Below are positions 28,061 to 29,855 of a DNA stretch of 35,500 nucleotides, in pieces (within the stretch, counting starts at the first letter, position 1; each line of letters opens with the position of its first letter). Made by a program: the position numbers and the translations under genes. The DNA is from Candidatus Pacearchaeota archaeon. GTDB lineage: Archaea > Nanobdellota > Nanobdellia > Pacearchaeales > GW2011-AR1. The notes under the pieces are model-generated. The model worked only from the letters and a program-made list of their open reading frames with translations, had not been told where the DNA came from and ran no database searches. Location of the stretch: NCBI GenBank assembly GCA_016866995.1, contig VGKQ01000008.1, positions 1-35,500 of the forward strand, given 5' to 3'.

Positions 28061-28369
28061 ATGGAATTTTGTCCAAGGTGCGGCTCTGTGTTTGTAGAAA
28101 AAAGAAAAAATTTTGGATGTGCTAGATGCGGATATTCTGCAAAAGGGAAAGTAAAAATAGAAGCTTCTGAAAAAATAAAGGAAAAAGAGAGAATAGGAGT
28201 AGTAAAGGAAAAAGAAATTGATGTTTTTCCAGTAACAGCTGCAACATGCCCGAAATGCAAGAACAAAGAAGCTTATTTCTGGTCAAGTCAAACAAGAGCA
28301 GCAGACGAGTCTGAAACTCGTTTCTTTCGATGCAAGAAATGCCAGCATACATGGCGAGAATACAGGTGA
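28061..28369 (+). CDS. tfs: Transcription elongation factor S (TFS)
   Basis: MEFCPRCGSVF...CARCGYS and CPKCKNKEAYFWSSQTRAADESETRFFRCKKCQHTWREYR; track ORF begins upstream at 28013. Confidence 0.93.
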   Translation: MEFCPRCGSVFVEKRKNFGCARCGYSAKGKVKIEASEKIKEKERIGVVKEKEIDVFPVTAATCPKCKNKEAYFWSSQTRAADESETRFFRCKKCQHTWREYR

Positions 28370-28519
28370 GTGTGATTAAATATTATTTACGAACCTGTAT
28401 TCGAGAAGAGAATATCGCTGATACTAAATTATAGTATCAATCAGCGATATTCGAGCAGAGAATACAGATAATAGTAAATGTATAGCATAAGATTATCAAT
28501 ACTCGAGAAGAAAATACAG
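28358..28519 (+). repeat. Array of variable hairpins separated by GAGAAGA/GAGCAGA linkers
   Basis: Linkers at 28403-28409, 28453-28459, 28505-28511; GAATAC/GAATAT/AAATAC cores at 28358, 28410, 28460, 28512. Confidence 0.75.
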
Positions 28520-28594
28520 AAAAATATAAGATATCTTATAAAATAGATAATAATATGCAACAATATTTATAATACTTAAAAAATTAGTTTCTGC

Positions 28595-29628: not shown

Positions 29629-29730
29629 TTTATAATTTTTACTATAAATTTAAAAATAGGATATTCTTATCTGAAATACTACTCGAACTTGCACTCAGGA
29701 TAAAATAAAATTCACTCGTGCAAATCCTCG

Positions 29731-29855
29731 GGACCCGTAGCTCAGCCCGGTTAGAGTACTTGGCTCTTATAAACCTTTTAGAAAAAGGTTTCCAAAAGAT
29801 GGCATAAAGCCATGAAGAAACCAAGGTGTCGTGGGTTCAAATCCCATCGGGTCCA
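29731..29855 (+). tRNA. tRNA-Lys(CTT) with a 50-nt intron (29770-29819)
   Basis: GGACCCG/CGGGTCC acceptor, GCTC/GAGT D-stem, CTTGG/CCAAG anticodon stem, loop CT-CTT-A | intron | A, GTGGG-TTCAAAT-CCCAT T-arm; no encoded CCA. Confidence 0.92.

Follow-up and report, generated by a model that had tools for sequence, protein, structure and literature searches.

The three consecutive hairpins at the 3' end of the TFS gene (positions 28355-28508, plus strand, of the window, i.e., the whole 35,500-nucleotide stretch of DNA that was analysed) are members of a mobile family that is interspersed in genomes of Pacearchaeota (DPANN archaea) and has the consensus CGAG-stem-loop-stem'-CGAG-N^AG, in which the caret marks the insertion boundary. 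We interpret each unit of the array as a copy of a mobile element that is short, hairpin-shaped, and non-coding, [CGAG - stem - loop - stem' - CGAG - N], and that occurs in a single Pacearchaeota family; we assign this reading a probability of roughly 0.72. Direct support came from the dispersed copies, their constant tags and co-varying stems, the asymmetry between strands, and insertions, mostly 5' of AG, that distinguish related genomes.

The folds proposed in a preliminary description of the locus, made from the letters alone, were reproduced. In hairpin 1, GAATACAGGT (28358-28367) pairs with ACCTGTATTC (28393-28402); hairpin 2 (28410-28452) combines stems of 12 and 5 bp, with 4 nt bulging out on the 3' side; hairpin 3 (28460-28504) is imperfect; and the units are separated by GAGAAGA, GAGCAGA, and GAGAAGA, with spacings of 50 and 52 nt. 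The first 5' arm does lie within the last codons and stop of the gene, whose identity as TFS follows from a Pfam Zn_ribbon_TFIIS match, and the codons CGA-GAA-TAC-AGG-TGA make up both the 5' foot and the arm of unit 1. The array folded at -64.8 kcal/mol compared with -38.7 kcal/mol for dinucleotide shuffles (z = -6.2), and none of 200 shuffles did as well. Other parts of the preliminary description required revision: the 16-nt palindrome TATAAGATATCTTATA is no more than chance would give (the window has 3 of this kind, Markov resamples 0-5), the most likely identity of the supposed fourth partial unit is the former TFS end, displaced downstream, and what had been called a linker does not space the units but consists of the 3' tag of the element (CGAGN) followed by the AG(A) of the target or of the next unit. 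A second, solitary hairpin of the family directly adjoins the first base of a tRNA gene (Table 1), and the relatives L026 and L027 have no hairpin ahead of their tRNA. This tRNA gene was found by Rfam and missed by ARAGORN.

Table 1. Positions of the TFS gene, the hairpins, and adjoining features in the window (R1, model of TFS-type units; R2, generic structure model).
Feature	Position	Strand	Basis
TFS gene (transcription factor S, TFIIS-type zinc ribbon)	28061..28369	+	Pfam PF01096 Zn_ribbon_TFIIS
Hairpin unit 1, canonical member: CGAG-AATACAGGT-GAG..CGA-ACCTGTATT-CGAG-A	28355..28406	+	R1 and R2 matches
Hairpin unit 2: AGAG-AATATCGCTGATACTA..stem'-CGAG-C, 4-nt bulge on 3' strand	28407..28456	+	Folding, R1/R2 matches
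Hairpin unit 3, imperfect stem, end CGAG-A	28457..28508	+	Sequence, R1 match
AGAAAATACAGAAAAA, probable decayed, displaced original TFS end (AGA-GAA-TAC-AGA-TAA type)	28509..28524	+	Sequence, parallels elsewhere, Arg-codon association
Second, solitary hairpin of the same family	29681..29730	-	Rule scan; R2, 46 bits
Intron-containing tRNA gene beside second hairpin	29731..29855	+	Rfam tRNA, 53.8 bits

The stems proved to be nearly free in sequence and constrained in pairing. Across 22 aligned TFS-type units, 93% of stem cells were paired compared with 26-43% when the alignment was slid, 7 of the 12 pairs changed on both sides, and 43 compensatory cells were counted compared with 17.8 after shuffling. 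Covariation in the R2 alignment is not independent evidence, because that model was built from copies chosen for pairing; we also searched with an anchor-only pattern, CGAG-N9-GAG-N(10-38)-CGA-N9-CGAG-NAG, which leaves the arms free and does not select for pairing. It gave 36 matches in 18 genomes compared with 3 for the reversed pattern, and unit 1 of the array matched it perfectly, with 9/9 stem pairs. Tabulation of 35 matches, after one identical repeat was omitted (34 distinct arm combinations), showed the free 9-nt arms to be paired at 8.46 of 9 positions compared with 5.86 for shuffled partners (maximum 6.54 in 2000 trials), a contrast that is not a strict probability since related copies are not independent. 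The earlier claim that variable arms are held paired beside a constant motif was thus borne out without selection for pairing. Wobble pairs were strongly asymmetric (63 as 5' U to 3' G, 8 in the opposite sense), which indicates that one particular strand folds. CGAG occurred at both feet in at least 95% of 119 aligned R2 matches, a figure that would under-count other tags because R2 was built on CGAG copies; CGAG facing CGAG, like GAG facing CGA, may form tandem G.A pairs.

The genome set consisted of drafts throughout, which limits every statement of absence made here. Copies beyond this locus, for which the preliminary description had proposed a search, were readily found: the linker motif TRYTCGAGNAGAGARTA occurred 18 times, spread over 11 of the 181 family genomes, and never when reversed, and all but one of these matches were at TFS or in an array downstream of TFS. 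The exception, in G092:C6, lies within an ORF and looks like chance. Among named records carrying the motif, 10 of 12 were Pacearchaeota or unnamed archaea and the other two look like chance; the genome-collection matches L158 and L163 resemble coding sequence, have no hairpin, and were taken as chance. Within the present genome the TFS-type linker was confined to the TFS locus, but the hairpin class was not, with 11 copies by R2. A covariance model, also suggested earlier and built here from the 22 aligned units (R1), matched 25 of 181 family genomes, in part away from TFS and with other stems. These included a hairpin whose 5' arm is the T-arm of a tRNA (L146; the tRNA was read from the sequence and received no ARAGORN call), hairpins at the end of the DisA gene (L145 and L148) and of an endonuclease dU gene (L082), both genes being identified by Pfam. 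All R1 matches away from TFS carried a CGAG 5' foot and a CGAGNAG 3' foot, and the hairpins at TFS, DisA, and endonuclease dU overlap the stop codons. Scanning with the CGAG/CGAGNAG rule returned 27 sites from the 543 kb of DNA retrieved and 0 from the reversed sequence, a density that is not a genome average because many of these loci were chosen for having matches.

With R2, up to 51 copies were found per genome. Order-wide, 65 of 200 genomes matched, every match falling within the same family, and in a class-wide sample 27 of the 28 matching genomes belonged to it; the sole match outside the family in that sample (G402:C41, 5170-5236, 38.5 bits) reflects horizontal transfer or chance. Copies were located at tRNAs, at gene ends, and inside a gene, in both orientations. 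Viral contigs that were searched for the hairpins gave no match, and Rfam 15 covariance models run over the hairpins returned nothing beyond tRNA and a single weak U6 match that fell below threshold. Among the interpretations offered in the preliminary description, a mobile or recombining element fits these data best, whereas this spread of one kind of hairpin over tRNAs, other gene ends, and the interior of a gene, in either orientation, does not fit an RNA element specific to TFS or an array for protein binding. A TFS-specific RNA element was therefore dropped as the whole explanation.

Filled and empty insertion sites were identified by comparison within one genus. In a coding sequence, the empty site GGGCAC^AGGGAATTTTC of G016 corresponded to the filled site GGGCAT[CGAGAGTTTTGGG..AAAGCTCGAGC]AGGGAATTTTT of G173 (outer brackets enclose the inserted unit), and the same genomes yielded a second pair, GAGTTGG^AGAGGGTTTTTG and GAGTTGG[CGAGCATTTTCG..GATGCGAGT]AGAGGGTTTTT; a third pair (L249/L300) was similar but less exact. 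In L239/L303 the unit had entered another hairpin at its GAGC^AG end, and the comparisons L246/L309 and L235/L305 were without AG, so that AG followed the insertion in four of six empty-site comparisons and preceded it in none. Over 87 copies the right flank read Y-A-G-R-G-N-N-T-T-T-T (A 84%, G 91%); it resembles the element's own left end, CGAG-NR-TTTT, a resemblance that comes partly from tandem or nested copies. The empty sites and the right-flank consensus together indicate that the mobile unit is [CGAG..CGAGN], usually placed ahead of AG. Set against MITEs, which combine terminal inverted repeats with a direct duplication of the target, the hairpins have arms that are inverted repeats, but single insertions had at most N/AG at the junction. 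Two larger insertions were also observed: a MITE-like insertion at L243 (G172:C5, 2862-3178) has terminal inverted repeats GGCTCTGTCMGGA and contains two hairpins, and at L227 (G016:C26, 2404-2594) a hairpin lies in an insertion of ~190 nt that is flanked by a ~20-nt direct repeat (ATAATACTTCACCGAAA) and absent from G172. The sequences flanking L227, GGAAGGGGGAAC and TGCTGGNGGGTGGGGC, were seen again beside other copies.

At TFS, the inserted unit seems to provide the gene with a new end, as suggested by codon usage and by remnants downstream. The Arg codon before Glu-Tyr favoured CGN by 16:3 in genes with an array, compared with 7 CGN and 14 AGR (mostly AGA) in genes without one (p = 0.0016, from a table that includes related, and so non-independent, genomes and a few manually added rows). 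In addition, a second, often decayed TFS end starting with AGA was present downstream of arrays in other genomes. Both features are predicted if the inserted unit carries its own TFS end, which would also account for the coincidence of the first arm with the TFS stop region and for the decayed TFS end after the array. Units after the first begin with AGAG, as expected from tandem duplication between gene-end repeats. Two loci had a more complex layout. At L079 (G066:C13, 7598-9395), two TFS paralogues flank two minus-strand ORFs, with an array after the second TFS only. At L071 (G015:C42, 1-2960), TFS-end hairpins alternate with a DUF4258/DUF2283 pair, a 108-aa ORF, and a PIN-domain gene downstream of TFS, an arrangement that resembles a cassette array of toxin-antitoxin-type genes and in which one stretch was masked.

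We propose that the element would be recognised as a folded single strand, either RNA or single-stranded DNA, through its CGAG feet. Its left end looks like the target sequence that follows the insertion point, so a unit entering next to a gene end would hand that gene a new end. At TFS, TGG^AGAGAATAC... would become TGG[CGAGAATACAGGTGA-loop-ACCTGTATTCGAGN]AGAGAATAC..., with the old end pushed downstream. Later units may have come from tandem duplications between the gene-end repeats or from new insertions. A more far-reaching version, which we put forward tentatively and consider doubtful at present, is that recognition is almost purely of the fold (CGAG feet, inner GAG/CGA, and a free paired stem) and that the element can use a host gene's 3' end as stem, making it addressable to TFS, DisA, endonuclease dU, or tRNA genes while regenerating them; this would be an archaeal form of structure-guided insertion with an enzyme acting on RNA or single-stranded DNA. 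Searches for such an enzyme were negative within the drafts covered: Y1 transposase (PF01797) had no match in this genome (G000) or in the copy-rich sisters G016, G172, and G173, and tyrosine recombinase (PF00589), present in most genomes, had none in the copy-rich G016 (77% complete) or G173 (93%). Neither a RAYT-type transposase nor a tyrosine recombinase tracked hairpin copies, and a search for autonomous copies with a gene between arms up to 5 kb apart gave 7 matches compared with 6 in the control, so none was recognised.

Several of these observations could be explained by recurrent evolution, at gene ends, of a functional RNA structure (a 3'-end, terminator, or stability element), with its stem under selection in the transcript and its dispersal incidental. 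The wobble asymmetry and the overlapped stop codons agree with this, as does the predominance of sense copies (29, compared with 16 antisense) between same-strand genes. We nevertheless consider it unlikely, since many copies are antisense to both neighbouring genes or upstream of them, one borrows its 5' arm from the T-arm of a tRNA, another splits a coding sequence that is hairpin-free in a sister species, and no Rfam family was matched. Replication slippage with hairpin-templated repair, building and perfecting palindromes at gene ends with neither mobility nor recognition, would leave unexplained why both feet carry CGAG tags that are not complementary, as well as the inner GAG/CGA, the dispersed copies at unrelated loci, and the clean insertion into existing sequence; even though such a process would hold arms complementary within an array, near-identical tandem units occur in G124 and G016, and units after the first start AGAG as slippage would predict, we judge it very improbable.

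An integron-like system, in which the hairpins would be attC-type folded sites, the TFS end an attI-like anchor, and the intervening genes cassettes, was suggested by the small genes separating hairpins in G015:C42 and by the conservation of structure with free sequence. The cassette layout occurred at that one locus, however, while most copies are solitary and carry nothing; together with CGAG feet in place of attC R boxes and the lack of tyrosine recombinase matches in G016 and G173, this makes such a system quite improbable. A CRISPR-like array (17-nt repeats with 33-35-nt spacers) was rejected as well, because the ends of each "spacer" pair together and solitary copies exist. The mobile hairpin element is thus our preferred reading.

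A full-text literature search, in which subscription journals were thinly covered so that it is weak evidence of novelty, returned no description of elements like these from DPANN archaea, and they go unmentioned in a recent survey of archaeal REPs. Short mobile hairpins are already known from bacteria and mitochondria. A DPANN family with constant feet, free paired stems, and apparent gene-end replacement suggests movement that reads shape over sequence and points to a mobilising enzyme in very small genomes; it also cautions that a conserved paired structure at a gene 3' end is not necessarily a regulatory RNA.

By description, the nearest known kinds appear to be REP elements, yeast mitochondrial GC clusters, and integron attC sites. 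REP elements are GTAG- and CGTC-tagged palindromes, the GTAG type going with RAYT enzymes and the CGTC type being without a dedicated transposase (PMC3733652). Like the present family, they are short tagged hairpins, mostly intergenic, with several subfamilies and tens of copies per genome, some clustered or inside genes (PMC3733652). The Pacearchaeota hairpins differ in having CGAG at both feet rather than GTAG or CGTC at one end, nearly free yet paired stems, loops of 12-37 nt, gene-end targets, and no Y1 transposase match in copy-rich draft genomes, so that tag and enzyme both separate them from the REP/RAYT system. Integron attC sites, including archaeal ones, work through a folded strand with conserved feet and a variable stem (PMC9668308), features shared here along with the one locus (G015:C42) that has small genes between sites; the feet CGAG and CGAGNAG, without an R box GTTRRRY or a linked IntI, and the mostly solitary copies do not support assigning the hairpins to integrons. 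Yeast mitochondrial GC clusters are short mobile palindromes flanked by AG (or ACT) with no known enzyme (PMC4478555). The title of Weiller 1989, in the reference list of that paper, names single elements and tandem arrays. The present elements are likewise short mobile palindromes with no known enzyme; AG follows the insertion in most copies and preceded it in none of the empty-site comparisons, and they reside on an archaeal chromosome with different tags and a target-like left end. The likeness is one of description. Integrase attachment sites are a further parallel, since integrating elements insert at the 3' ends of tRNA and protein genes and restore the gene end; the same kinds of gene ends are entered and apparently restored here, by a non-coding, hairpin-shaped element of ~50-70 nt with no linked integrase.
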